A DNA stretch of 64,000 bases. Origin: an uncultured Massilia sp. Lineage in GTDB: Bacteria > Pseudomonadota > Gammaproteobacteria > Burkholderiales > Burkholderiaceae_D. The stretch's first letter is position 1; every line of letters begins with the position of its first letter. The position numbers and the translations under genes were made by a program. Positions 66-14,368 of this stretch are shown here, piece by piece. The notes beneath the pieces were generated by a model. It did no database searches, was not told the DNA's origin, and saw only the letters and a program-made list of their open reading frames with translations. The stretch covers positions 124,001 to 188,000 of the forward strand of contig NZ_CAJYEB010000025.1 of assembly GCF_913773735.1 (NCBI RefSeq). Direction: 5' to 3'.

Positions 66-680
66 ATGAGTTTCAATCATGAACGGATCGAGAAGAATCC
101 CTGGCTGCTGATCGGCCTGGTGCTGCTCGTGATTTCCTTCGGCGGCCTGGTCGAGATCGTGCCGCTGTTCTTCCAGAAATCGACGACCGAGCCGGTCGCC
201 GGCCTCAAGCCGTATTCGGCGCTGCGCCTGGCCGGGCGCGACGTCTACATCCGCGAGGGCTGCTACAACTGCCACTCGCAGATGATCCGCCCGCTGCGCG
301 CCGAGACCGAGCGCTACGGCCACTACTCGGTGGCCGGCGAATTCGTCTACGACCACCCGTTCCAGTGGGGATCGAAGCGCACCGGCCCGGACCTGGCCCG
401 CGTCGGCGCGCGCTACTCGGACGAGTGGCACCGCACCCACCTGGACAACCCGCGCGACGTGGTGCCGGAATCGAACATGCCCGGCTACCCGTGGCTGGCG
501 AAGACCAAGCTCGATCCGCAATCGATCGTGCCGAAGATGCGCGCGATGCAGCGCATCGGCGTGCCCTACAGCGAGCAGGACGTGCAGGACGGTCCCGCCG
601 AACTGGACGGCAAGACCGAGCAGGACGCCCTGATCGCCTACCTGCAAGGCCTGGGCACCCAGATCAAGACGAGGAACTGA
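66..680 (+). CDS. ccoO: cbb3-type cytochrome c oxidase subunit II (mono-heme)
   Basis: This 204-residue protein is the mono-heme subunit of the cbb3 terminal oxidase, which reduces oxygen with high affinity in the inner membrane. One N-terminal membrane anchor lies at about residues 14-34. The heme c attachment motif CYNCH is at 66-70, and a Met at 138 in SNMPGYPWL is the likely second heme ligand. Length is normal for CcoO. An AGGAG ribosome binding site at 55-59 sits six bases before the ATG and supports this start. The gene is followed after one base by ccoQ. In the family it carries electrons from CcoP to CcoN. Confidence 0.96.
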
Positions 681-681
681 C

Positions 682-870
682 ATGGCCATTACACATCTGT
701 TCGACAGCGCAAGCAGCATCATGACCCTGATCAGCTTCGCCACCTTCATGGGCATCTTCGCCTGGACCTACGTGCGCAAGGAACGCGATTTCGCTGCCGC
801 CGCCACGCTGCCGTTCGCCGACGACGCCGCCGACGAGTTCACTACCGGCAGGGAGGACCGCCATGTCTGA
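682..870 (+). CDS. ccoQ: cbb3-type oxidase small subunit CcoQ
   Basis: A 62-residue protein with one hydrophobic segment at about 11-30, followed by the basic stretch YVRKERD and an acidic tail. This is the usual build of CcoQ/FixQ, a small single-span subunit that helps keep the cbb3 complex assembled. It starts one base after the ccoO stop and its last 8 bp overlap ccoP, so translation of the three is probably coupled. The identification uses position and topology, since the sequence is short and poorly conserved. Confidence 0.88.
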   Translation: MAITHLFDSASSIMTLISFATFMGIFAWTYVRKERDFAAAATLPFADDAADEFTTGREDRHV

Positions 871-1816
871 CTTCACCAGCGGTTTCTGGAACTGGTACGT
901 CACGATCATCGTGATCTGCTCGATCGCCGGCTGCGCGATCCTGCTGTGGTCGCAGTCGCGCTTCAAGGTCAAGCTCGACGAGGACGGCCAGCCGCAAAAG
1001 ACCACGGGCCATGTCTGGGACGAGGACCTGACCGAGCTGAACACGCCGATGCCGCGCTGGTGGATGGCGATGTTCTGGCTGACCATCGTGTTCGGCATCG
1101 TCTACCTGGTGCTGTACCCAGGCGTGGGCAGCTACACCGGCAAGTACGACTGGAAATCGACCGGCCAGTACGAGGCCGAGGTCAAGCAGGCGAATGCCGA
1201 GTACGGCCCGCTGTTCGACAAGTACCTGCACCAGGACCTGCAGCAGGTCGCCGCCGACCCGCAGGCCCATGCCATCGGCGAGCGCCTGTTCCTGACCTAC
1301 TGCGCGCAGTGCCACGGTTCCGACGCGCGCGGCAACAAGGGCTATCCGAACCTGACCGACAAGGACTGGCTGTACGGCGGCGAACCCTCGGTGATCAAGG
1401 AAACGATCATGAAGGGCCGCCACGGCCAGATGCCGCCGATGGGCGCGGCGCTCGGTTCCGACAAGGACATCGAGAACGTGGCCCATTACGTGCGCAGCCT
1501 GTCGGGCCTGTCGGCCGACCCGATCAAGGTCAGCTTCGGCAAGGAGAAGTTCGGCGCCTGCGCCGCCTGCCACGGCGCCGATGCGCACGGCAACCCGATG
1601 CTGGGTTCCCCCAACCTGACCGACAAGGTCTGGCTGTACGGCGGCAGCGTGGAAACCGTCATGGAAACGATCCGCAAGGGCCGTGACAACACCATGCCGG
1701 CCTGGGGTGAATTCCTGGGCGAGCCGAAGGCGCACGTGCTGGCCGCGTATGTCTGGAGCCTGTCCAACGTGCCGCGCCAGCCGCAAGCCGCCGCAACCGA
1801 GGTGGCCGCAAAATGA
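863..1816 (+). CDS. ccoP: cbb3-type cytochrome c oxidase subunit III (di-heme)
   Basis: This 317-residue di-heme c subunit takes electrons from periplasmic cytochromes and passes them to CcoO. Two membrane segments lie at about 8-30 and 67-88; two-anchor CcoP proteins are a known subtype. Two cytochrome c domains follow, with CAQCH at 147-151 and CAACH at 233-237. Methionines in MPPMG (about 190) and MPAWG (about 278) are likely axial ligands. The start overlaps ccoQ by 8 bp and the stop overlaps ccoG as ATGA. Confidence 0.96.
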   Translation: MSDFTSGFWNWYVTIIVICSIAGCAILLWSQSRFKVKLDEDGQPQKTTGHVWDEDLTELNTPMPRWWMAMFWLTIVFGIVYLVLYPGVGSYTGKYDWKSTGQYEAEVKQANAEYGPLFDKYLHQDLQQVAADPQAHAIGERLFLTYCAQCHGSDARGNKGYPNLTDKDWLYGGEPSVIKETIMKGRHGQMPPMGAALGSDKDIENVAHYVRSLSGLSADPIKVSFGKEKFGACAACHGADAHGNPMLGSPNLTDKVWLYGGSVETVMETIRKGRDNTMPAWGEFLGEPKAHVLAAYVWSLSNVPRQPQAAATEVAAK

Positions 1817-3207
1817 ACGCCCCGGCGCCGAAGGAAGCGGTCATCAAGATGTACGAGTCGCGCGCGGACATCCATCCGCGCGAGGTGAAGGGCCGCTTCG
1901 CTTCGCTGCGCTGGGCGTTCGTCTGGTTGACCCAACTGTTGTTCTACGGCGTGCCGTGGTTGCAAGTGCACGGCCGCCAGGCCGTGCTGTTCGACCTCGA
2001 GACGCGCAAGTTCCACCTGTTCGGCCTAACGCTGTGGCCGCAGGACTTCATCTACCTGGCGGCGCTCCTGATCATCTGCGCCTACGGGCTGTTCCTCGTC
2101 ACCGCGGTGGCGGGGCGCATCTGGTGCGGCTACGCCTGCCCGCAGACGGTCTACACCGAGATCTTCCTGTGGATCGAGCGCCGCATCGAGGGCAACCGCA
2201 GCGCCCGCATCCGCCTGGACCGCCAGCGCTGGAATGGCGAGAAGATCGCCAAGCGCGGCAGCAAGCACCTGGCGTGGGCGCTGGTGGCGCTGTGGACCGG
2301 CTTCACCTTCGTCGGCTACTTCACGCCGATCCGCACGCTGGGCCACGAGGCCCTGCGCTTCGGCCTCGGGCCGTGGGAATCCTTCTGGGTGCTGTTCTAC
2401 GCCTGCGCCACCTACGAGAACGCCGGCTGGCTGCGCGAGCAGGTGTGCAAGTACATGTGCCCCTACGCCCGCTTCCAGAGCGCGATGTTCGACCGCGACA
2501 CGCTGATCGTCAGCTACGACGTGAAGCGCGGCGAGCCGCGCGGCGTGGACAAGAGCGGCGCCAGGGCGACGGCCAAGGGCGACTGCATCGACTGCAGCAT
2601 GTGCGTGCAGGTCTGCCCGACCGGCATCGACATCCGCAACGGCCTGCAGTACGAATGCATCGGCTGCGCCGCCTGCGTCGACGCCTGCGACACCGTGATG
2701 GACAAGGTGCACAAGCCGCACGGCCTGATCCGCTACTCGACCGGCAACGCGCTGGCCCAGGGCTGGAGCGGCGCGCAGATCCGCCGCCGCATCCTGCGGC
2801 CGCGCGTGATCGGCTACGGCGTGTTCTTCCTGCTCATCGCCGGCGCCATGACGACCTCGCTGGTCCTGCGAACCCCGCTCAAGCTCGACGTGATCCGCGA
2901 CCGCGGCGCGATGGGACGCGAGGTCGAGGACGGCCTGATCGAGAACGTGTACCGGCTGCAGGTGATGAACACCGGCGAGGAAGCGCACGTGTTCCGCATC
3001 GCGGTCGCGGGCATCCCCGGCGCCGCGGTGGCCGGCGACGACACGGTCGAACTGAAGGGCGCCAGCGCGCGCGCCGTGCCGGTGCGCGTGCGCGCCGACC
3101 CCGGCCACGCGAAGACCGGCTCGAACCACATCGCGTTCACCGTGACGGCGCAGGACGACGCCGGCATCAGCGTGACCGAGAAGGCCGTGTTCATCGTCCC
3201 GAAATGA
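1813..3207 (+). CDS. ccoG: CcoG, polyferredoxin-like Cu(II) reductase for cbb3 assembly
   Basis: This 464-residue membrane ferredoxin matches CcoG (FixG/RdxA), shown in other bacteria to reduce Cu(II) to Cu(I) for copper insertion into cbb3 oxidase. Several membrane segments precede two [4Fe-4S] motifs: Cys 258, 261, 264, 268 and Cys 282, 285, 288, 292. A CGYACP motif at 105-110 and a CKYMCP motif near 212 are also typical of the family. An immunoglobulin-like domain fills the last 120 residues. The start codon overlaps the ccoP stop by four bases, showing membership of the oxidase operon. Confidence 0.95.
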   Translation: MNAPAPKEAVIKMYESRADIHPREVKGRFASLRWAFVWLTQLLFYGVPWLQVHGRQAVLFDLETRKFHLFGLTLWPQDFIYLAALLIICAYGLFLVTAVAGRIWCGYACPQTVYTEIFLWIERRIEGNRSARIRLDRQRWNGEKIAKRGSKHLAWALVALWTGFTFVGYFTPIRTLGHEALRFGLGPWESFWVLFYACATYENAGWLREQVCKYMCPYARFQSAMFDRDTLIVSYDVKRGEPRGVDKSGARATAKGDCIDCSMCVQVCPTGIDIRNGLQYECIGCAACVDACDTVMDKVHKPHGLIRYSTGNALAQGWSGAQIRRRILRPRVIGYGVFFLLIAGAMTTSLVLRTPLKLDVIRDRGAMGREVEDGLIENVYRLQVMNTGEEAHVFRIAVAGIPGAAVAGDDTVELKGASARAVPVRVRADPGHAKTGSNHIAFTVTAQDDAGISVTEKAVFIVPK

Positions 3208-3241
3208 CCCATACGACATCAACGACCTGGAAGGACCGATC

Positions 3242-3775
3242 ATGCATGCGATTCCCAACCCCGCCACGCCGGCCAGCGCGCGCGGCGACGCCGATCCCTG
3301 GTACAAGCACCGCTGGCCCTGGTTCCTGATGCTGGGACCGGTCTCGGCGATGGCCTTCACCGGCATCGCCGTGCTGATGTCGTTCGACTACCCGGACGCC
3401 GTGGTGGTCGACGACTACTACAAGCAGGGCAAGGCGATCAACCAGGACCTGCGCCGCGACCGCGTGGCGACCAGCCTGCGCCTGTCGCTGCGCGCCAGCT
3501 ACGTGCCGGCCGAGGGCCGGCTGAAGGGCAGCATCGCCAGCGCCGGCAAGCCGCTGACGGTGCCGTTCACGATCTACCTCGTGCACCCGACGCTGCCGGG
3601 CAAGGACATCGCGCTGCTGGTGCGCCCGGACACGGCCGGCGCCTTCGCGGTCGACCTGCCGACGCTCGAGCCCACCCACTGGAGCGTGGTGGCCGAGGGC
3701 GCGCTGCGCGACTGGCGCCTGGCCAGGACCTGGAACGGGGTGCAGGCGCTGACGATCGACGCCGACCGCGAGTAG
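3242..3775 (+). CDS. ccoH: FixH/CcoH family cbb3 oxidase assembly protein
   Basis: This 177-residue protein has a short cytoplasmic leader, the motif PWYKHRWPWFLMLGP that is typical of FixH N-termini, one membrane span at about 28-48, and a periplasmic domain. CcoH interacts with the oxidase during assembly and is needed for stable complex. It begins 34 bp after ccoG, with GGAAGGA just upstream of the start. The usual copper ATPase ccoI and small ccoS are not seen downstream and must lie elsewhere or upstream of the window. A GC-rich hairpin (3786-3801) separates it from the convergent porin gene. Confidence 0.92.
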   Translation: MHAIPNPATPASARGDADPWYKHRWPWFLMLGPVSAMAFTGIAVLMSFDYPDAVVVDDYYKQGKAINQDLRRDRVATSLRLSLRASYVPAEGRLKGSIASAGKPLTVPFTIYLVHPTLPGKDIALLVRPDTAGAFAVDLPTLEPTHWSVVAEGALRDWRLARTWNGVQALTIDADRE

Positions 3776-3805: not shown

Positions 3806-4915
3806 TCAGAAGTTGTGGCGCATCCCCAGCGCCATGCCCTTGAGCGTCGCCCCCGCCGCCGGCCCGATCCCGTTGATCGGGAAGTCGTACGCGGCATTGC
3901 CGCCGTTGTCCAGGCGCGAGACGTAGGCGTACAGGCTGGAACGTTTGGACAGCGTGTAGTCGTAGCCCAGCGTGACGTGCGTGGCGCCGGTGCCGGGTCC
4001 GCTGCGCACGTAGCCTATCCGCGCGGTGGATGGGCCGCTGCCGGCGCGCGCGCGGCCGACGGACAGGCGCAGGCCGTGCGCGCCCATCTGGTGCGACACG
4101 GCGACCCAGGCCGCGTCGCGCGCCAGTTCGCCCGAGGCGGTGCCGTATTCCAGGCGCTCGACGATCGCCGCGACACGCGTCTGCCCCCATGCGGCGGGAC
4201 CGAACTGGTAGGCCAGGGCGATCTTGCTGCCGCGGTCGTCCAGCCCCGGTCCCTGGTATTCGTGGTGGCGCTCGTGCGCCAGTACGGCATACCACGGTCC
4301 GCGTTCATAGACGGCGGCGGCCGAGTCCAGCGACGGCCGGGCGCCGCTGGCCGGCTTTTCCTCGTTCATCCCATGCGTCAGGCGCAGCGACAGGCCGTGC
4401 CAGGCCGGCGTCCAGTAGTGGACCGAGTTGGCCTGGCGCCGGTCGAACGAGTAGACGTTGCCGACGTTGTCGACCGACGGGCCGGAACCGTTGGCCAGGA
4501 TGCTCATGTAGCCGGCCGTGGTGGGGTAGAACGGGTCCAGGCCCGACGTGGCGCCGGCGTACGCGGTGACCCAGTGGCCGGCGAACAGCGTGCCCCAGGG
4601 GCCGTCGAGGCCGACGCGGGTATCGCGCCGGAACGGCTCGCCCGCGCCGGTGTCGGGCGACAGCGTGCCTTCCAGCTGGAAGATGGCCGTGACGCCGCCG
4701 CCCAGGTCTTCGCTGCCGCGAAAGCCGAGGACCGAGCGGTTGTTGACCATGCGGGTCTGGGTGAAGCCGCTGCCGTTGTCGACGTGCTCCATCGAGACGT
4801 TCAGGCGGCCGTAGATCGTGACGGATTGCTGGGCATGGGCGGAGGCGGCGCAGAGCGCGGCGAGCGCGGCGACGTTGGCGACGCACGTCGCGCCTTGGCG
4901 GATACGGGTGGGCAT
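3806..4915 (-). CDS. outer membrane porin, Burkholderiales general (OmpC-like) type
   Basis: This encodes a 369-residue beta-barrel porin for passive diffusion of small solutes. The start at 4915 is chosen because AAGGAGA lies five bases upstream; a longer frame from 4948 lacks this. A signal peptide ends at ASAHA before QQSV. The mature protein opens with VTIYGRLNVSMEH and LGFRGSEDLGGG, hallmarks of the family, and ends in a C-terminal Phe after MALGMRHN, the outer membrane sorting signal. No specific substrate can be read from the sequence. The gene is convergent with ccoH and stands alone. Confidence 0.92.
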   Translation of the reverse strand: MPTRIRQGATCVANVAALAALCAASAHAQQSVTIYGRLNVSMEHVDNGSGFTQTRMVNNRSVLGFRGSEDLGGGVTAIFQLEGTLSPDTGAGEPFRRDTRVGLDGPWGTLFAGHWVTAYAGATSGLDPFYPTTAGYMSILANGSGPSVDNVGNVYSFDRRQANSVHYWTPAWHGLSLRLTHGMNEEKPASGARPSLDSAAAVYERGPWYAVLAHERHHEYQGPGLDDRGSKIALAYQFGPAAWGQTRVAAIVERLEYGTASGELARDAAWVAVSHQMGAHGLRLSVGRARAGSGPSTARIGYVRSGPGTGATHVTLGYDYTLSKRSSLYAYVSRLDNGGNAAYDFPINGIGPAAGATLKGMALGMRHNF

Positions 4916-5155
4916 GGCATTCTCCTTTGCCGCGATTGTGCGGTGCATGCGAAGGGTTGCCAGCTATCCGATGGTATATGTGTCGTCATGTCGTGCCGTG
5001 CCCGACAGGCCGCGGGATTTCCCCGCGCATGGCGCTGCGGTCCGGTCCAGCGGCCCGGGCGGCCCGCCGCGGCCGGGCCAGGTCCGTCGCTTCGGCACCG
5101 GCCACGCAATCGGCCGACCCGGCGGCGGCGGCCGTGCCGCCATGCGCAGCGAGCG

Positions 5156-6262
5156 CTAGTCGGCGACTTCGAACGCGGCCGGGTCGAGTTCGCTGAGCGT
5201 GGCGAAGGCCGTCTCGCGCGCCGGCTGCGGGACGTGCTGACCCAGGCGCGCGCGCAACTGGGCCAGGTAGTCGGCGCGCACGCGGCGCAGCACGTAGTCG
5301 CGGAAGTTGTCCTGCTCCAGGCCGCGCCAGGCGCGCTCGCGGGCGGCGTCCGAGCGCGTCACGGCCAGGGCGCGCGCATCGGGCGACAGGTCGGCGTCGC
5401 CGCGTGCCAGGCGGGTGTAGTTGTAGCGGTCCATGTAGTCGCCGGTCACGGTTTCGATCACATTGATCTCGTCCATGCCGAGCTGCTGCTTGAACTTGTC
5501 GATGTTGGCGACGATGGGCGGGAAGCAGTTGGACGACCACAGCGCCGACAGCTGCGAAATCTGCTTGGCTTCCTGCGAGCCGCCCACGTCCAACATCCGC
5601 GGCTGGAAGTCGATGCCGAGGAAGCGGCAGACCGTTTCCAGCGTGGCCTGCTGGCTCGACAGGAAATCCTCGTAACGGATGGTCAGCACCCGCTCGGGGT
5701 GGCGTGCCGTCACCCGGTCGGCGGCGCGGTGGGCGGCCAGCCAGGTTTCCGCGTTCAGGCGCGTGTCGAAGTCGTGGATGATGGCGCGGTTCATCGACGC
5801 CACCTGGGCGCGCGGATCGCGCACCACGTTTACGAACAGCATGTCGGGGAACAGCGCCATCAGTTCGTCGGCGTAGTGGACGTTGTCCAGCGACTTGTCC
5901 ATGACGACGCTGGCGCCCTGGTACTCGGCGGCGCGCAGCAGCAATTCCCAGTGGACGCGGTGCACGCTGCGCGGCTGGTGGCGCAGGGCTTCGAACATCT
6001 CCACCGGATCGAAGGTCATGTGCGGCCACTTGACCATGCTGACGGCCTGCAGGCCGCACAGGTCGGTCACCAGGCGGAAATAGTTGCGGTCGTCCCGCAG
6101 GTCGCCGTAGTGCGGCAGCAGCGGCATGAAGTCGACGATGTGCAGCGGATACGGCGAATAAAATTGCGGCGCCATGTTGAGGCGCAGGCGCAGCGCGTGG
6201 CTGCCGCAGCGGCGCAGCGGGATCATCATCACCGGACGGGGGCGGGCGAGGGATGCGGTCAT
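5156..6262 (-). CDS. PAPS-dependent sulfotransferase
   Basis: This 368-residue protein belongs to the sulfotransferase superfamily, which moves a sulfuryl group from PAPS to an acceptor and leaves PAP. The 5'-phosphosulfate binding loop reads LRRCGSHALR at 16-25 in place of the more common PRSGT form. The 3'-phosphate element is RDPRAQVASMNR at 148-159, with Arg148 and Ser156 in the expected places. There is no signal peptide, so it should act in the cytoplasm. AGGAG lies seven bases before the ATG. It begins nine bases after the transporter gene and is last in a run with APS kinase and a DHH phosphoesterase. The acceptor substrate is unknown. Confidence 0.85.
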   Translation of the reverse strand: MTASLARPRPVMMIPLRRCGSHALRLRLNMAPQFYSPYPLHIVDFMPLLPHYGDLRDDRNYFRLVTDLCGLQAVSMVKWPHMTFDPVEMFEALRHQPRSVHRVHWELLLRAAEYQGASVVMDKSLDNVHYADELMALFPDMLFVNVVRDPRAQVASMNRAIIHDFDTRLNAETWLAAHRAADRVTARHPERVLTIRYEDFLSSQQATLETVCRFLGIDFQPRMLDVGGSQEAKQISQLSALWSSNCFPPIVANIDKFKQQLGMDEINVIETVTGDYMDRYNYTRLARGDADLSPDARALAVTRSDAARERAWRGLEQDNFRDYVLRRVRADYLAQLRARLGQHVPQPARETAFATLSELDPAAFEVAD

Positions 6263-6271
6263 GCCATTCTC

Positions 6272-7543
6272 CTAAAAAAGCAGGTAGCCGGCCAGGGCGG
6301 AACCAGTCACGACCAGGGCGGCGTCGATACGAAAGCGAAGCAGGGCCAGGAGGGCCAGCGCGCAGGGCAGGACGGCCAGCGGTTCCAGCGCGCCGGCCCG
6401 TGCGATGGTCCAGGCGGCGGCGAACACCATGCCGGCCAGGGAGGCGCGCATGCCGCCCAGTGCGGCCTGCACCGGTACGCAGTGGCGCACGCGCTGCAGC
6501 GCGCCGCTCGCGGCGATGATCAGCACGGCGCTGGGCACGAACATGCCGAGGGTGGCCGCCGCGGCGCCGGGCAGGCCGGCGACCTTGAGGCCGACCAGCG
6601 CGGAACTGATCATGGCCGGACCGGGGCTGAGCTGGGTGATGGCCAGGGCGTCGACGAACTCGCGCGCGCTCAGCCAGCGGTAGGCGTCGACCACGGTGTG
6701 CTGCAGCAGCGGAATGAATACATAGCCGCCACCGAATGCGAGCAGGCTCATGCCGGCGAACACGCTGGCCAGTTGCAGCAGGATGGGCGGGGCGGCCAGC
6801 GCGGCCAGGCCGCCGAGCGCGGCGGCCAGCGCGGCGAAACGCCGTCCGGCCGCGGCGCGCGGCGCGGCGTTCGTGGCGCCGCTGGCGGGAATGGTTTGCC
6901 TGGCGGTGGCGCCGCTTGCGGACCGGTCGCGCCAACGGTAGCCGAGGGCGGCGGCGATGGCCATCACGCTCAAGGTGGTCGCCAGGCCGGGCAGCGCGGC
7001 CAGCGCCAGCGCGGCGCAAACGCCCAATGCCATCTGGCGGCGGCCCTGCACCGCGCCGCGCCACAGCCGCAGGCCGGCCGCCAGCACGATGGCGATGATG
7101 GCCGGCGCGATGCCGTGGAAGAGCGGCTGCAATGCTTCCATGTGGCCGTAGCGCAGGTACAGCGTGCCCAGTCCGACCATGCACAGGAAGGCCGGCAGGA
7201 CGGCGCAGGCGATGGCGACCGCCGCGCCCGCAGCACCGCGCAGCCGGTAGCCGGCATAGGCGGCCACATTCACCGCCACCGGTCCGGGCAGCACGGAGGC
7301 GAGGGCCAGGCCGTCCAGCAGGTCGGCGGCGGGCAGCAGGCGCCGGCGCTCGCACAGCACCTGCTGCGTCACCGACACCATGGCCATGAAGCCGCCGAAG
7401 CTGGTGCAGCCGATGCGCAGGAACAGCAGGGCCAGCGCGAACAGGCCGATGGTCGGCACAGCGCACGGCATGGCCGCGCCCATGGGCATGGCCGCCGGCG
7501 CGGGCTGCGGCCGGGACGACTGGGCGGCGCCGTCAGGAAGCAT
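6272..7543 (-). CDS. CHR-family (ChrA-type) anion transporter
   Basis: This 423-residue protein with about 10-12 membrane segments is a full-length two-domain CHR transporter. Each half has the paired family motifs: a FGG motif (SFGGFMAMV near 50, LLAFGGGY in the second half) and a PGP motif (SVLPGPVAVN near 90, QLSPGPAMI). Characterised members export chromate, a sulfate analogue; at least one cyanobacterial member is induced by sulfur limitation. The start overlaps the DHH gene by 11 bp and the sulfotransferase follows after nine bases. Placed between sulfur-activation genes, it may move sulfate or a related anion instead of, or as well as, chromate. That substrate is inference. Confidence 0.85.
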   Translation of the reverse strand: MLPDGAAQSSRPQPAPAAMPMGAAMPCAVPTIGLFALALLFLRIGCTSFGGFMAMVSVTQQVLCERRRLLPAADLLDGLALASVLPGPVAVNVAAYAGYRLRGAAGAAVAIACAVLPAFLCMVGLGTLYLRYGHMEALQPLFHGIAPAIIAIVLAAGLRLWRGAVQGRRQMALGVCAALALAALPGLATTLSVMAIAAALGYRWRDRSASGATARQTIPASGATNAAPRAAAGRRFAALAAALGGLAALAAPPILLQLASVFAGMSLLAFGGGYVFIPLLQHTVVDAYRWLSAREFVDALAITQLSPGPAMISSALVGLKVAGLPGAAAATLGMFVPSAVLIIAASGALQRVRHCVPVQAALGGMRASLAGMVFAAAWTIARAGALEPLAVLPCALALLALLRFRIDAALVVTGSALAGYLLF

Positions 7544-8516
7544 GGCTGCGGGGCGCGTCCGGCGCGAAGTAGGTGCCGAAGCGATCGATAAAGCGTTCCA
7601 GCTGGTCCGCCGGCAGGCGGTTGATGCCGGCAGCGGCCTTGCGTCCCCCGCCGCCGGGGAACTCGCCGCACAGCCCGCAGGCGCTGCGCGCCTCAGGTTG
7701 CCCCGAGCGCACGCTGATCAGGTACGTGCCATCGCTGCTGGCCAGCACCACGGCGAACGCGGCGCCGTCCTGGCGCGCGGCCAGGCGGTTGGCCAGCACG
7801 CCGTTGACGCGCCGCGCCCACGGTGCGGACGGCAGCACGTACACCGCATTGCCGTCGCGCTGCCAGTGCGGCAGCAAGCCTTGCAGTCGCGCGCAGTCGC
7901 TGCGATAGCCATCCAGCAGGTCGCGGTACAGCGCGGTGCGGAGGAAACCGTCCGGTGTTTCGTGGCCGCTGATGGCGCGGTACAGATTGGCCGGCGCGAT
8001 GTGCAGGTCGGCCTCGCACTCGCCGTAGGCGTTGTAGTTCAGGGCCTGGCCCAGTTGCCGCAGGGCGTTGGTGCCGGCCTCGTCCAGCCCCAGGCTGCGC
8101 GCCAGCGCGCAGGCCGGCCGGTCGAGGTTGTCGCCGAAGGCGGCCGTCACGGCCCAGGGCCGGTAGCGACCGCCCAGGTGGCGGTCCACCAGGATGCTGG
8201 TGCAGACATCCGGCGCCGTGTCGCAATGCAGCGACAGATGCGGATGGCGCTGCGCCTGCGCGCATGCGGCCATGTGGTGGTCGAACCAGGTCAGCCGCGC
8301 GCCGCCGTCCAGCAGGCGGCGCAGTTCGCCGGCATTGGCGTCCAACGAGATGTCCAGCACCAGCACGTCCAGGTCCGGCCCGGCCGGCACGCGGCGCAGC
8401 AGTTCGATGTCGCGCTTGACGCCGGTGACCAGCGTGCGCCGGGCCGGCGCATGCAGGCGCAGCATGTGTAGCGCGCAGATGCCGTCGGCGTCGCCGTTGA
8501 ACACGTCGTAGGCCAT
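7533..8516 (-). CDS. DHH-family phosphoesterase (possible PAP phosphatase)
   Basis: This 327-residue protein carries the metal-binding motifs of the DHH superfamily: FNGDADG at 6-12, an aspartate pair region LVLDIS near 53, the DHH triad at 79-81, and a DHHA1-like C-terminal motif GGGGRKAAAG at 288-297. The superfamily includes NrnA/YtqI enzymes, which degrade nano-RNA and also remove the 3'-phosphate from PAP. It starts four bases after the APS kinase stop and overlaps the CHR transporter gene, so it is clearly co-transcribed with sulfur-activation genes. PAP removal is therefore an attractive role, but the enzyme has not been matched to a specific NrnA subgroup. Confidence 0.75.
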   Translation of the reverse strand: MAYDVFNGDADGICALHMLRLHAPARRTLVTGVKRDIELLRRVPAGPDLDVLVLDISLDANAGELRRLLDGGARLTWFDHHMAACAQAQRHPHLSLHCDTAPDVCTSILVDRHLGGRYRPWAVTAAFGDNLDRPACALARSLGLDEAGTNALRQLGQALNYNAYGECEADLHIAPANLYRAISGHETPDGFLRTALYRDLLDGYRSDCARLQGLLPHWQRDGNAVYVLPSAPWARRVNGVLANRLAARQDGAAFAVVLASSDGTYLISVRSGQPEARSACGLCGEFPGGGGRKAAAGINRLPADQLERFIDRFGTYFAPDAPRSHAS

Positions 8517-8520
8517 GGGG

Positions 8521-9138
8521 TCAGAGGAAGCGCGGCGTCAGGTGGCGGAACAGTTGCTCGCAGGCCTGGGCCAGCGTCAGCGCGTCGGTGTCCAGCGTCA
8601 GCGCCGGCGCCGGCGGCACTTCGTACGGGGCCGACACGCCGGTGAACTGCGGTATCAGGCCGGCGCGCGCCTTCTGGTACAGGCCCTTGGGATCGCGTTC
8701 CTCGCACACCGCGCATGGCGTGCTGACGTAGGTCTCGATGAAGTTGTCCGCGCCGATGATCTCGCGCGCCAGGTCGCGGTCGCTGCGCAGCGGCGAAATG
8801 AATGCGCAAATCACGATCAGCCCGGCGTCGTTCATCAGCCGAGCCACCTCCGCGCTGCGGCGAATGTTTTCGCGGCGGTCGTGGGCGGTAAACCCGAGAT
8901 CGCTGTTGAGGTGGTGGCGCAGGTTGTCGCCGTCGAGGATGAACGCGGTGCGCCCTTCGCGGAACAGGCGCTGCTCCAGCGCGCACGCCAGCGTGGACTT
9001 GCCTGCGCCGCTCAGCCCGGTCAACCAGACCGTCGCCGCCTGCTGGCGCAACTGCCGCTGGCGCTGCTCGGCGCGGACGCCGCTGGCATGCCAGAATACC
9101 CGCGGCGTGGCCGCTTCCAGTCTTCCTGCACTGTCCAT
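8521..9138 (-). CDS. cysC: adenylylsulfate (APS) kinase
   Basis: This 205-residue kinase phosphorylates APS to PAPS, the universal sulfuryl donor. The Walker A loop GLSGAGKST is at 41-49, the APS site DGDNLRHHLN at 69-78, and FISPLRSDRD holds the conserved Ser115 seen in APS kinases. The start at 9138 is preferred because GGGAGAA lies just upstream. It is a stand-alone CysC, not fused to a CysN GTPase, and no sulfate adenylyltransferase is nearby, so APS must come from elsewhere in the genome. It heads a run with a DHH phosphoesterase, a CHR transporter and a sulfotransferase, which points to sulfation more than to cysteine synthesis. Confidence 0.93.
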   Translation of the reverse strand: MDSAGRLEAATPRVFWHASGVRAEQRQRQLRQQAATVWLTGLSGAGKSTLACALEQRLFREGRTAFILDGDNLRHHLNSDLGFTAHDRRENIRRSAEVARLMNDAGLIVICAFISPLRSDRDLAREIIGADNFIETYVSTPCAVCEERDPKGLYQKARAGLIPQFTGVSAPYEVPPAPALTLDTDALTLAQACEQLFRHLTPRFL

Positions 9139-9157: not shown

Positions 9158-10879
9158 TCAGAATTTTTGCCGGCCGGCCGCCGCCGGAGCCTTCGTCGCC
9201 GCGTACTTGACGCCACGCCCGGCTTGCGGGCCTCCTGGCGCGGACAGTTCCGGCACCGGTCTGGCGCGCGCGATCGGCGCCTCCTTGGCCGGCGACGTCT
9301 GCGTCGGGCCGCCCGCCAGGCGGAAGGTGGCGACCACGTCGTTCAGGCTGTCGACCTGTTCCTGCATGGCCTGCGCCGCCGCGGCGGCCTCTTCGACCAG
9401 TGCGGCGTTCTGCTGGGTGACGTCGTCCATCTGCGTGACGGCGTGGTTGATCTGCTCGATGCCGGCCGACTGTTCCTGGCTGGCCATCATGATTTCCGAC
9501 ATGATCTCGGTCACGCTCCGGACGCTTGCAACGACTTCCTCCATGGTGGCGCCGGCCTGTTCGACCAGCCGGTTGCCGTTCTGCACCTTGTCCACCGAAT
9601 CACCGATCAGTTCCTTGATTTCCTTGGCCGCCGCGGCGCTGCGCTGCGCCAGGGTGCGCACTTCGCCGGCCACCACGGCAAAGCCGCGCCCCTGTTCGCC
9701 GGCGCGGGCCGCTTCCACGGCGGCGTTCAGCGCCAGGATGTTGGTCTGGAACGCAATCCCGTCGATCACCGCAATGATGTCCACGATCTTGTGCGCCGAG
9801 CTATCGATGGCAGCCATGGTATCCACCACTTTCGCCACCACCGCGCCGCCCTTGACGGCCACGCTGGAAGCCGACTCCGCCAGGTTGTTGGCCTGGCGCG
9901 CGCGATCGGAATTGAGGCGTACCGTGCTGGTCAGTTCCTCCATCGACGAGGCCGTTTCCTCCAGCGTGCTGGCCTGCTGCTCGGTGCGCGAGGACAGGTC
10001 CAGGTTGCCGGTGGCGATCTGGCTCGCCGCGCTGGCGATGGCTTCGCTGCTGGTCTGCACCTGGCCGACGATGTGCGTCAGGCCGTCGCGCATGGACTGC
10101 ATGGCGAACAGGAGGCTGCTGGTGTCGCCGCTGCGCGCATGGATGGGCACGCTCAGGTTGCCGGCCGCGATTTCCGACGCGATGGCCGCCGCCTCGTCGG
10201 GTTCGCAGCCGAGCTGGCGCACCACGCGGCGCGTGATCATCCAGGCCGCCGCCACGCTGCACAGCAGCGCCAGCCCGCCGACGACCAGCATCTGCCGGCG
10301 CGCGCTGTCGTAGGCGGCTTCGGCAGCGGCGACCGCGTCGACGTTCTGCTTTTCCTCCACCGCGATCAGCTGGCGAATCAACTCCCACCATTTCTTTTGC
10401 ACGGGGCGGAATTCGTAGCGCAGCAGCTGGTACGCCTGGTCCTGCTGCTGGCCCAGCGCCAGGTCCTGCGCGCGCTTGATGAACGGCGCCGCAAGTTCGC
10501 CCTGCTTCCGGATGTCGTCGAGCAGGGCCTTTTCCTCGGGGGCGGTGTTGGCCACCTCGCGGAACATCGCGGCCATCTTGTTCAGTGCGTCGGCATACTT
10601 GGCTTCCTGGTCGCCGATGCGCTTGACCTCGATCCGGATTTCCTTTTCTTCCTTCAGCAGGATCAGGTTGCGCAGCGCCAGCGCGCGTTCTGTCACGGTC
10701 AGGTCCATCACTTGGGCAAGCCGCGTTTCCACATTGTTGACCTTGGTGATCTCGATCATGCGTGCCTGGATCTGGCGCATGCTGGCCAGCCCCAGTGCAA
10801 TTACTACCAACAGCAGGACGGACACGAGGCCGAAGCCAATGCCGAGTCGTTGGGCAACAGTCATATTTCGCAACGTCAT
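9158..10879 (-). CDS. methyl-accepting chemotaxis protein
   Basis: This 573-residue chemoreceptor has a membrane span at about 13-33, a periplasmic four-helix-bundle type sensor region to about 185, a second span near 190-212, HAMP, and a long coiled-coil signalling domain. The hairpin tip [20 protein letters not shown] is nearly invariant and contacts CheA and CheW. The C-terminus is Ala/Pro rich and lacks an obvious CheR tether pentapeptide. The start at 10879 is chosen because GAGGA lies nearby and the family begins with MTLRN-like residues. It lies 19 bp upstream of cysC on the same strand. The ligand is unknown. Confidence 0.93.
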
Positions 10880-11673: not shown

Positions 11674-12450
11674 TCACGCCATCGGACTACATTGCTCCGT
11701 CCCCGCCGCCATCGCCTTCAGGCGCGCGGGCTCAAGCAGGATGACTTCGCGCTTGTCCACCTGCACCAGCCCCATCTTCTTGAAGCGCGACAACAGGCGG
11801 CTGATGCTCTCGATGGTCAGGCCCAGGTAGTTGCCGATGTCCTCGCGCGACATGCGCAGCTGGAAGCTGGTCGAGGAATAGCCACGCGCGGCGTAGCGGG
11901 CCGACAGGTTCACGAGGAAGACGGCGAAGCGCTGCTCGGCGCGCATGTTCCCCAGCAGGAGCATGACGTTCTGCTCGCGCGTGATTTCCTGGCTCATGAT
12001 GCGGTGGAAGTGGCGCAGCAGGGCCGGCACGTGGCCGAACAGCTCTTCCAGGTTGGAGAACGGGATCTCGCAGACCTCGCTGTCTTCCAGCGCCACCGCG
12101 TCGCAGTGGTGGCGGTCGCCGCTGATCGCGTCCATGCCCAGCAGTTCGCCGGCCATCTGGAAGCCGGTGATCTGCGATTCGCCGGCGGCGTTCACCTGGT
12201 AGGTCTTGAAGTGGCCGAAGCGCACCGCGTACAGGTTGCGGAACGGTTCGCCCATCTGGTACAGGCGCTCGTCGCGCTCGATGCGGCGGCGGCGGCCGAT
12301 GATCTGGTCCAGGCGGTCGATGTCGGCGTCCGCCAGGCCCATCGGCAGGCACAGCTGGCCCATGCTGCAGGCCTGGCAGCTGACCTTGATGGCGTTCAGG
12401 GTCACGGGCTGGGGCGGTTGCAGGTCGATGGGGGAGACGGCATTGTTCAT
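11674..12450 (-). CDS. fnr: FNR-type oxygen-sensing transcription regulator (Crp/Fnr family)
   Basis: This 258-residue regulator has the four cysteines expected to hold an oxygen-labile [4Fe-4S] cluster: Cys25, Cys28 and Cys34 in VSCQACSMGQLC, and Cys116 in RHHCDAV. A cyclic-nucleotide-binding-like domain is followed by a winged helix whose recognition helix reads TIESISRLL. The E-S-R spacing matches FNR and predicts a TTGAT-N4-ATCAA site. The start at 12450 fits family length, although no clear ribosome binding site precedes it. FNR proteins switch on anaerobic genes and often cbb3 oxidase operons such as the one at the start of this window. The ccoN promoter is outside the window, so this link is inference. 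Confidence 0.93.
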   Translation of the reverse strand: MNNAVSPIDLQPPQPVTLNAIKVSCQACSMGQLCLPMGLADADIDRLDQIIGRRRRIERDERLYQMGEPFRNLYAVRFGHFKTYQVNAAGESQITGFQMAGELLGMDAISGDRHHCDAVALEDSEVCEIPFSNLEELFGHVPALLRHFHRIMSQEITREQNVMLLLGNMRAEQRFAVFLVNLSARYAARGYSSTSFQLRMSREDIGNYLGLTIESISRLLSRFKKMGLVQVDKREVILLEPARLKAMAAGTEQCSPMA

Positions 12451-12679
12451 GGAGTCGGTATCGGGAGCGTAAACATCGGTATTCCGATTATATGCCGCCA
12501 GCGCACAAAGGGAACCCATCCAGGCCCGTTCGGGGCCCGCACGGGGCGATTTCGGGGACGATCCGTTGGACATACGGAACAAACTGGCGGGAATGACAAG
12601 CCGTGGCAGAATGCGGGAAACACAACAAGGCAGGGCAGCGCGGCGTTCCGCACGCGCCGCTTTTGCACAGGAGACCATC

Positions 12680-14368
12680 ATGACCGCATCGCCCCACGCG
12701 CGTTTCCTCGCCGCGCGCGACTTCCTGCATCGCCACCGCACCGACTACGCCGCCGCCTGCGCCGGCTACCGGGCCCCCGAGCTCGACGACTTCAACTGGG
12801 CGCTCGACTTCTTCGACGTCCAGGCGCGCGCCAACGCCACGCCGGCCCTGTGGGTGGTGGAAGAGGATGGCAGCGAACGCAAGCTCTCCTTCGAGGAGAT
12901 GGCCGCGCGCTCGAACCAGGTCGCGAACTGGCTGCGCGACTGCGGCGTGCGGCGCGGCGAGCGCGTGCTGCTGATGCTGCCCAACCGCGTCGAGCTGTGG
13001 GAAGCCATGCTGGCCGCGATCAAGCTGGGCGCCGTGCTGGTGCCGACGACGATGCTGGTATCCAGCGCCGACCTCGACGACCGCATGCGGCGCGGCGCCA
13101 TCCGCCACGTGATCGCGCAGGCGTCCGAGACGGCCAAGTTCGCGGATCTGCCGGGCGACTACGGCCGCATCGCCGTGGGCGGCGCGGTCCCCGGCTGGCG
13201 CGACTTCGCCGCCAGCGGCGCTGCGGCGCGCGACTTCGTCCCCGACGGCGTCACGCGCGCCACCGATCCGCTGCTGCTGTACTTCACGTCGGGCACCACG
13301 GCGCAACCGAAGCTGGTGCTGCACAGCCACCAGAGCTATCCGGTCGGCCACCTGTCGACGATGTACTGGATCGGCCTGCAGCCGGGCGACGTGCACTGGA
13401 ACATCAGCTCGCCCGGCTGGGCCAAGCATGCGTGGAGCTGCTTCTTCGCGCCCTGGAACGCGGGCGCCACGGTGTTCGTCTACAACTACGAGCGCTTCTC
13501 GGCGCGCGCCTGCCTGGACACCATCGTGCGCTGCGGCGTGACCTCGCTGTGCGCGCCGCCGACCGTGTGGCGCATGATGATCAAGGAAGACCTGGCGCAA
13601 TGGCGCCCGCCGCTGCGCGAGCTGGTGGGCGCGGGCGAGCCGCTCAATCCCGAAGTCATCGACCAGGTCGAACGCGCCTGGGGCATCCGCATCCGCGACG
13701 GCTTCGGCCAGTCCGAGACCTCCTGCCAGATCGGCAATTCCCCCGGCCAGCCGGTCAAGCCGGGCTCGATGGGGCGGCCGCTGCCGGGCTTCCGGATCGC
13801 CTTGCTGGACCTCGACGACCTTCCGGCGCAGGAGGGCGAGATCGCCATCGCGCTCGATCCGGCGCCGCTGGGCCTGATGCTGTGCTACGAGGGCGACGCG
13901 GCCAAGACCGCGGACGTGATGCGCGCCGGGTACTACCACACGGGCGACACGGCCCGGGTCGACGCCGACGGCTATTATTTCTACGTGGGCCGCAACGACG
14001 ACGTGTTCAAGTCGTCCGACTACCGCATCAGCCCCTTCGAGCTGGAGAGCGTGCTGATCGAGCATCCGGACGTGCTGGAAGCGGCGATCGTGCCGAGTCC
14101 CGACCCGCTGCGCCTGGCCGTGCCGAAGGCCTTCGTCGCGCTGCGCCCCGGCGTCGCGGCGTCGCGCGAGCTGGCCGGGGCGCTGTTCGCGTTCGCGCGC
14201 GCGCGGCTGTCGCCCTACAAGCGGATCCGCCGCATCGCGTTCGCCGAGCTGCCCAAGACCATCTCGGGCAAGATCCGGCGGGTCGAGCTGCGGCGCCTGG
14301 AGGCGGCGGAGCAGGCGGCCGGGCAGGGACGGCCGGCGGAATACCGCGAGGAAGATTTTTCCGCATAA
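12680..14368 (+). CDS. AMP-forming acyl-CoA synthetase
   Basis: This 562-residue enzyme of the ANL superfamily activates a carboxylic acid to its acyl-CoA through an acyl-AMP. The P-loop-like motif YFTSGTTAQPKL is near residue 207, the A5 motif GFGQSET and the YHTGD motif are present, and the catalytic lysine lies in KTISGKIRR near the C-terminus. It most resembles medium-chain or aryl acyl-CoA synthetases. CAGGAG lies six bases before the ATG. It diverges from fnr across about 230 bp. The substrate cannot be read from the sequence. Confidence 0.88.
   Translation: MTASPHARFLAARDFLHRHRTDYAAACAGYRAPELDDFNWALDFFDVQARANATPALWVVEEDGSERKLSFEEMAARSNQVANWLRDCGVRRGERVLLMLPNRVELWEAMLAAIKLGAVLVPTTMLVSSADLDDRMRRGAIRHVIAQASETAKFADLPGDYGRIAVGGAVPGWRDFAASGAAARDFVPDGVTRATDPLLLYFTSGTTAQPKLVLHSHQSYPVGHLSTMYWIGLQPGDVHWNISSPGWAKHAWSCFFAPWNAGATVFVYNYERFSARACLDTIVRCGVTSLCAPPTVWRMMIKEDLAQWRPPLRELVGAGEPLNPEVIDQVERAWGIRIRDGFGQSETSCQIGNSPGQPVKPGSMGRPLPGFRIALLDLDDLPAQEGEIAIALDPAPLGLMLCYEGDAAKTADVMRAGYYHTGDTARVDADGYYFYVGRNDDVFKSSDYRISPFELESVLIEHPDVLEAAIVPSPDPLRLAVPKAFVALRPGVAASRELAGALFAFARARLSPYKRIRRIAFAELPKTISGKIRRVELRRLEAAEQAAGQGRPAEYREEDFSA

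Follow-up and report, generated by a model that had tools for sequence, protein, structure and literature searches.

A candidate chemoreceptor-linked sulfation operon with a putative DHH-type PAP phosphatase in Massilia and its relatives

Bacterial sulfotransferases that draw on 3'-phosphoadenosine 5'-phosphosulfate (PAPS) are known from systems in which rhizobial NodH is served by NodPQ, the PAPS supply genes being dedicated to the sulfotransferase, and from Rax-type tyrosine sulfation, in which a small precursor-peptide gene stands beside the sulfotransferase. Conversion of 3'-phosphoadenosine 5'-phosphate (PAP) to AMP is reported, in the passages available of the two sources, both for the PAP phosphatase of Methanothermococcus thermolithotrophicus (MtPAPP; PMC10322725) and for the pApase of Pyrococcus yayanosii (PMC8268124), the former being described there as highly specific for PAP and as encoded near the genes for ATP sulfurylase and adenosine 5'-phosphosulfate (APS) kinase. 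Here, a run of five genes is presented from a stretch of 64,000 nucleotides of an uncultured Massilia sp. (contig NZ_CAJYEB010000025.1, positions 124,001 to 188,000), the whole of which is hereafter called the window. These genes encode a methyl-accepting chemotaxis protein (MCP), an APS kinase (CysC), a DHH-DHHA1 phosphoesterase (DHH), a CHR-family transporter (CHR) and a sulfotransferase (ST), and we hold it rather probable that they form an operon for chemoreceptor-linked sulfation.

The five genes follow one another on the minus strand from about position 10879 down to 5156, in the order MCP-cysC-DHH-CHR-ST, with gaps of 19 bp between MCP and CysC, +4 between CysC and DHH, -11 between DHH and CHR, and +9 bp between CHR and ST. 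The MCP gene (9158..10879), first of the unit, encodes a 4HB_MCP_1 sensor (49.9 bits against a cut-off of 27) and an MCPsignal domain (182.2 against 34.6); its longest open reading frame (ORF) extends to 10975, and homologues begin near 10879. CysC (8521..9138, 205 aa) is a stand-alone APS kinase by its matches to PF01583 (APS_kinase; 214 bits against 21.1) and TIGR00455 (233.6 against 138.7), with the P-loop GLSGAGKST. It is followed by the candidate PAP phosphatase (7533..8516, 327 aa), a protein marginally below the Pfam cut-off for DHHA1 (25.5 against 25.9 bits) that is recognized by the fold of its model and by DHH motifs readable in its sequence. The CHR gene (6272..7543, 423 aa), whose start overlaps the end of the DHH gene, encodes a two-domain transporter of ChrA type (PF02417, Chromate_transp, 241 bits against 28.6; TIGR00937, chromate efflux, 228.7 against 171.7), and the ST gene (5156..6262, 368 aa) a Sulfotransfer_3 protein (PF13469, 89.8 bits against 27) with the motifs RRCGSHALR and RDPR...S. 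A preliminary description had delimited a unit of four minus-strand genes, from CysC to ST; their positions and spacings were recovered exactly, while its extent fell short by the MCP gene. As the run recurs in other genomes, it does not stand together by chance.

Recurrence was evaluated from a search with ST, which carries no bias towards the partner genes. Of 300 genomes from the order, 3 had a match of at least 63% identity, as did 4 of 62 from the genus, which together make 6 distinct genomes; any match at E<=0.001 occurred in 22 of the 300, the other 19 lying at 22-36% identity. CysC and DHH were found in the ST run in all six genomes, CHR between DHH and ST in four, and the MCP gene directly before CysC in five, so that the rare co-occurrence which would have spoken against the preliminary description was not encountered. 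Three routes (DHH, ST and sensor-domain searches) gathered 31 cassette loci, a biased sample: eight comprise all five genes (one ends inside CHR at a contig end), 12 MCP-CysC-DHH-ST, four MCP-CysC-ST without DHH, five CysC-DHH-ST without this type of MCP, and two, from Gallionella, CysC-DHH with ST on the opposite strand (one with CHR adjoining ST). Of the combination of cysC, DHH, CHR and sulfotransferase for which a neighbourhood search had been suggested, CHR (between DHH and ST in 8/31) and DHH (missing from 4/31) are variable members. The named hosts include Duganella, Paraburkholderia, Trinickia, Undibacterium, Acidovorax, Roseateles and Gallionella, and the tight run keeps a similar spacing across genera. 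Its patchy presence, in 4 of the 62 genomes of the genus, suggests transfer or repeated loss. Carriage of ST on plasmids was considered and rejected, 7 of 72,556 plasmid records having an ST match, the best at 30.6% identity. Divergences of the five cassette proteins are correlated (rho 0.53-0.94), as would equally be expected from vertical descent; permutations reached the observed value in 0 to 67 of 2000 cases, the 67 belonging to the MCP-CHR pair with 5 loci. Stop flags on the MCP of L140, L217 and L223 and on the ST of L131 reflect matches overrunning a start or stop codon. Two variants were also observed: in L210, L211, L213 and L214 neither DHH nor CHR lies between CysC and ST, the gaps of MCP-CysC-ST being 5-37 bp, and an Undibacterium metagenome-assembled genome (L064, 7366-8945) has CysC-DHH, lacks an ST match and shares gene clusters on its flanks with cassette locus L043, so that ST and MCP may have been lost or replaced in L064.

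The MCP gene belongs to the unit, and the recurrent unit usually begins with the chemoreceptor. After three pairs had been collapsed, the 100 DHH loci fetched came to 97 distinct ones, and an MCP match was present in 14 of the 16 that hold the cassette and in 1 of the other 81 (Fisher 6e-14, with no correction for kinship); the two cassette loci that have no such match are L033, with other genes at that place, and L087, on a contig of 3.3 kb. The linkage is a property of the sensor domain, which is 46-78% identical to that of the window MCP in 12 cassette loci (one of them shortened) and at best 40% identical in the host's own paralogues (29 of 41 entered the sensor comparison), unlike the signalling domains, which do not separate cassette-linked receptors from own paralogues. 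The short sensor of L061 scores below the best own paralogue (92.8 against 95.9 bits), and the nearby MCPs of L066, L067, L070, L085 and L126 give a weak sensor match or none. Upon searching 245 genomes of the family with the sensor domain, 23 places of at least 46% identity appeared among the matches listed, 15 beside CysC and ST, seven not and one at a contig end; the next six places among those matches, at 40-43% identity, were never beside CysC and ST (0/6). All 23 linked sensor domains that were entered in a tree of 41 fall in one set of 29 (SH-aLRT branch support 99). This tree, built by a quick method and with several long paralogue branches, covers 12 unlinked MCPs as well as L146; L061, L218 and L233 were left out and L169 had no match. 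An earlier tree contained no outside MCPs and lacked L146, the nearest own paralogue, and the pure clade of 13 that it showed was due in part to sampling.

The remainder of the host genome (5.88 Mb in 52 contigs, 99.84% complete, the window lying on contig 25) gives these genes a defined metabolic setting. CysC is the one APS kinase match in the genome, ST the one Sulfotransfer_3 match (the genome-wide sulfotransferase count covers that family), and DHH the one protein of its kind; two CHR proteins (four domain hits) are present. CysH, CysD and CysN, the latter two named by eye, stand together on contig 10, away from the window, which bears out the earlier expectation that APS is supplied from outside the cassette. 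Because CysH passes the APS-reductase cut-off (275.1 against 235.3; it also passes a general phosphoadenylyl-sulfate reductase model), sulfate assimilation probably proceeds through APS and would not need PAPS. No CysQ (TIGR01331) above cut-off was found in the genome, its sole Inositol_P match reaching 113.1 against 228.8 and being best described as an inositol monophosphatase. Considering that (i) there is one APS kinase, (ii) the APS-reductase and CysDN locus is separate, and (iii) CysQ is missing above cut-off, sulfation is probably all that PAPS serves, with ST as its one evident use. The cassette had been called self-contained; it does make and use PAPS by its gene content, with the genome's only APS kinase and only Sulfotransfer_3 match, but it is not self-contained, since ATP sulfurylase is encoded elsewhere and some loci lack DHH.

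DHH is likely a PAP phosphatase, because it is linked to three forms of APS-kinase gene and because its best structural match is the archaeal DHH-type enzyme. Among the matches listed in the 300 order genomes, DHH occurs in 108, a strong APS kinase in 121 and both in 63 (Fisher 2.7e-6, with no correction for kinship). In 29 genomes they are no more than 5 kb apart, whereas random placement in genomes of 4 Mb would give about 0.18 pairs. For these counts, 108 of 110 genomes with a DHH match were retained, the weak matches of G106 and G068 and a second one of G280 being dropped, and strong APS kinases were those down to E 4e-20 among the matches listed, weaker ones being dropped, including one beside DHH in G271. 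An APS-kinase match was present in the fetched stretch at 53 of the 97 distinct DHH loci, 37 of these belonging to the 81 that have no cassette; the partner is a stand-alone CysC, a CysN-CysC after CysD (Nitrosomonas) or a fused ATP sulfurylase-APS kinase. The likely metal ligands N7, D9, D11, D55, H80, H81 and D129 are invariant in 28 aligned sequences, and the model built from these 28 shows the DHH-DHHA1 fold with a mean predicted confidence (pLDDT) of 92.6. Two programs gave MtPAPP (8a8k) as the best solved match (VIA Z 24.9, root-mean-square deviation 3.3, 297 residues aligned; Foldseek E 3.5e-15, target TM score 0.74, next entry 4.6e-11). By motif matching by eye, Asp8, Asp10, Asp57, His76, His77 and Asp127, ligands of MtPAPP in the part of its report available, correspond to Asp9, Asp11, Asp55, His80, His81 and Asp129 of DHH, His6, which is Asn7 in DHH, being the sole listed ligand that differs. 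Two other associations were observed beside DHH genes: a gene of ~551-561 aa adjoining DHH in L069 (9037-10689) and L104 (6143-7825), of the same cluster in both and with an AAA_33 kinase domain in the L069 protein, is possibly another partner, and in Nitrosomonas locus L105 (5105-10998) CysD, CysN-CysC and DHH are followed by GalE- and GalU-like genes named by eye, which may point to a sulfated polysaccharide.

In the operon that we propose, whose genes would be co-transcribed, the CysDN sulfurylase encoded elsewhere would supply APS, which CysC would phosphorylate to PAPS; ST would move sulfate from PAPS onto a cytoplasmic acceptor, releasing PAP; and inhibition would be relieved by DHH, which would split PAP into AMP and phosphate. 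In the loci that have it, CHR may carry an oxyanion, either sulfate or, with less certainty, the product of ST. The MCP may respond to a ligand connected with this chemistry, and this would explain why one sensor-domain group accompanies CysC and ST. The roles suggested for CysC and ST follow from family membership, that of DHH from linkage and fold, and those of CHR and MCP from linkage.

CHR, which the preliminary description had counted in the unit, is an optional member. Where present, it is of a cassette-specific type, since the cassette CHRs are more similar to each other (46-82% identity) than to the host genome's second CHR (27-34%); identity to the Gallionella CHR is 39-47%. A CHR protein, SrpC, is reportedly sulfur-regulated, and among the open-licence papers listed on CHR and sulfate none dealt, by its title, with a sulfotransferase operon. 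Alternatively, CHR could be a chromate-resistance gene sitting in the operon by chance, a possible but somewhat unlikely explanation that agrees with its score above the TIGR00937 cut-off and with its absence from most cassettes, and that the separate subgroup formed by the cassette CHRs speaks against.

Several results weigh against a chemoreceptor-linked sulfation operon as here proposed, and they concern its acceptor, its receptor and its phosphatase. No acceptor gene recurs beside the unit among the neighbouring gene clusters, and no small gene widely conserved beside it was found. In the 1 kb that follows the ST gene (27 loci) and the 1 kb that precedes the MCP gene (23 loci), no ORF of 20-120 aa had matches in at least 3 lineage groups, although such a comparison could miss short or fast-changing genes; one antisense-like ORF set was common to two lineage groups (L033 with L057/L060), with none upstream of the MCP gene. 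The comparison was made by lineage group as a repetition of a first one (27 loci, among the matches listed) that had been dominated by the shared flanking genes of one lineage. Sulfation of the MCP itself was considered as well and set aside. Of the five genes, ST shows the strongest conservation (18 loci, 60-94% identity), and its two motifs, invariant in 14 sequences, are placed at what we take to be the usual PAPS-binding sites. Its model (pLDDT 82.7) leaves the acceptor class open, because tyrosylprotein sulfotransferases and the sulfotransferase domains of olefin synthase and curacin match it about equally (Z 16.4-17.7). Its C-terminal helices (residues ~294-341; window 5156-5380), with invariant W312, R326, R329 and Y332, lie beyond the range matched by solved sulfotransferases and are a possible acceptor or partner site. 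The missing acceptor genes would be expected if the acceptor were external or a housekeeping molecule, and they bring up the conjugation of an outside compound, in which the MCP would sense a hydroxylated compound, ST would conjugate it, DHH would clear PAP and CHR would help to export the charged product. The conservation of ST and the presence of a receptor and a transporter in the same run fit such a scheme; considering, on the contrary, that no recurring catabolic or other efflux genes were seen and that most cassette loci have no CHR, we regard it as rather doubtful.

Regarding the receptor, 7 of the 23 close sensor-domain places had no cassette within the fetched stretch and six unlinked MCPs lie inside the set of 29, so that the receptor can apparently persist without the cassette; these six (L209, L215, L222, L226, L227 and L228) are possible orphan receptors after cassette loss. 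Near the cassettes of Acidovorax, Gallionella and Roseateles lie MCPs with sensors of other types, which is weak evidence because MCPs can be numerous in such genomes: the host genome has 42 MCP matches, and 25 MCP genes are given for Gallionella ES-2 in the passages available of PMC3770913. With a FliA promoter consensus, the best site before the window MCP was no better than shuffled sequence (98 of 100 shuffles as good), and among 23 loci only L131 (0/100) and L060 (1/100) stood out, L053 giving 7/100. An ordinary operon for the sulfation of a small metabolite, lipid or glycan, with the MCP as a mere neighbour by shared descent, would account for the same-sensor receptors lacking a cassette, for the L033 cassette with no adjoining MCP and for the lack of a FliA-type promoter in the window. 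Nonetheless, the linkage is kept across Oxalobacteraceae and Burkholderiaceae while the flanking genes differ by lineage, and other MCPs accompany the Acidovorax, Gallionella and Roseateles cassettes, though they can be dense there; we consider a functionally unlinked neighbour unlikely.

Finally, for the phosphatase, DHH is only 14% identical to MtPAPP, and a shared fold is no proof of function. RecJ-type structures match at Z 23.6 and less, close to the value for MtPAPP, and against solved chains phmmer gave nothing at E<=1 and a profile search three RecJ sequences only, all weak (E 0.0048 to 0.057). Because a strong APS kinase is lacking, among the matches listed, from 45 of the 108 genomes with DHH, the family may have another role, and because 4 of the 31 cassette loci lack DHH, removal of PAP within the operon is not essential in these; the suggestion in the preliminary description that DHH could clear PAP is kept as likely and not extended to every cassette. 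That DHH is instead a nanoRNase or RecJ-like nuclease, placed beside CysC for general nucleotide salvage, draws on these RecJ matches and on the genomes that lack a strong APS kinase, and is improbable, since the PAP phosphatase is the best match by two programs, nanoRNase-type and related phosphodiesterases score lower (Z 14.8-15.8) and the linkage to APS kinases is repeated in three forms.

Outside the unit, a porin gene (3806-4948) was considered as a member and excluded, a single weak match (L102, 34%) being found in 100 loci. Cassette and porin are flanked by genes that by eye encode cytochrome cbb3 oxidase functions (CcoO, CcoP, CcoG, FixH) and an Fnr-type regulator (window 66-3775 and 11674-12741).

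The widespread proteobacterial DHH family, often adjoining APS kinase, is a strong candidate for the bacterial counterpart of the archaeal PAP phosphatase, and this candidacy arises in a genome lacking a CysQ above cut-off. As genes for sulfation and chemotaxis travel together, the ligand of the receptor can be searched for among sulfate-related molecules, and the receptor is in turn a handle on the sulfated product; the MCP-first operon in relatives hints at a connection between a sulfated molecule and cell movement. A bolder and speculative version, to which we assign little likelihood, is a self-made signalling loop in which the ST product would be exported by CHR, and the product or its precursor read by the co-encoded chemoreceptor to steer cells, with a new proteobacterial DHH family replacing CysQ. 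In that case, relatives with an orphan receptor would use it to detect sulfated molecules that their neighbours make.

Compared with described systems, the window DHH shares with MtPAPP the DHH-DHHA1 fold, the metal-ligand motifs and a nearby APS kinase gene, and with the pApase of P. yayanosii the fold and motifs, as far as the available parts of both reports describe them; it differs from MtPAPP in its low identity, in being bacterial and known here from sequence and model, and in standing beside a sulfotransferase and not a PAPS reductase. Xanthomonas RaxST with RaxP/RaxQ, in the source passages available, is likewise a bacterial sulfotransferase with PAPS-supply genes, whereas beside ST no small precursor-peptide gene common to several lineages was found, and its partners are MCP, DHH and CHR. 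In contrast to NodH/NodPQ, the window operon has no ATP sulfurylase and different partners. By sequence, ST has its closest solved relatives in the olefin synthase (4gox) and CurM (4gbm) sulfotransferase domains, and by fold in these and in tyrosylprotein sulfotransferases, ST being set apart as a stand-alone protein with C-terminal helices beyond the matched range. CHR resembles ChrA/CHR chromate transporters in its two domains and family score, and differs in its place in a sulfation run and its own subgroup. Neither a sulfation cassette with a chemoreceptor nor a DHH protein replacing CysQ beside a sulfotransferase was found in open-licence full texts, the passages available of PMC3770913 concerning other genes than this combination. 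Thus, the enzymes are of known kinds, and what appears new among PAPS sulfation systems is their combination with a chemoreceptor and with DHH in place of CysQ beside the sulfotransferase.

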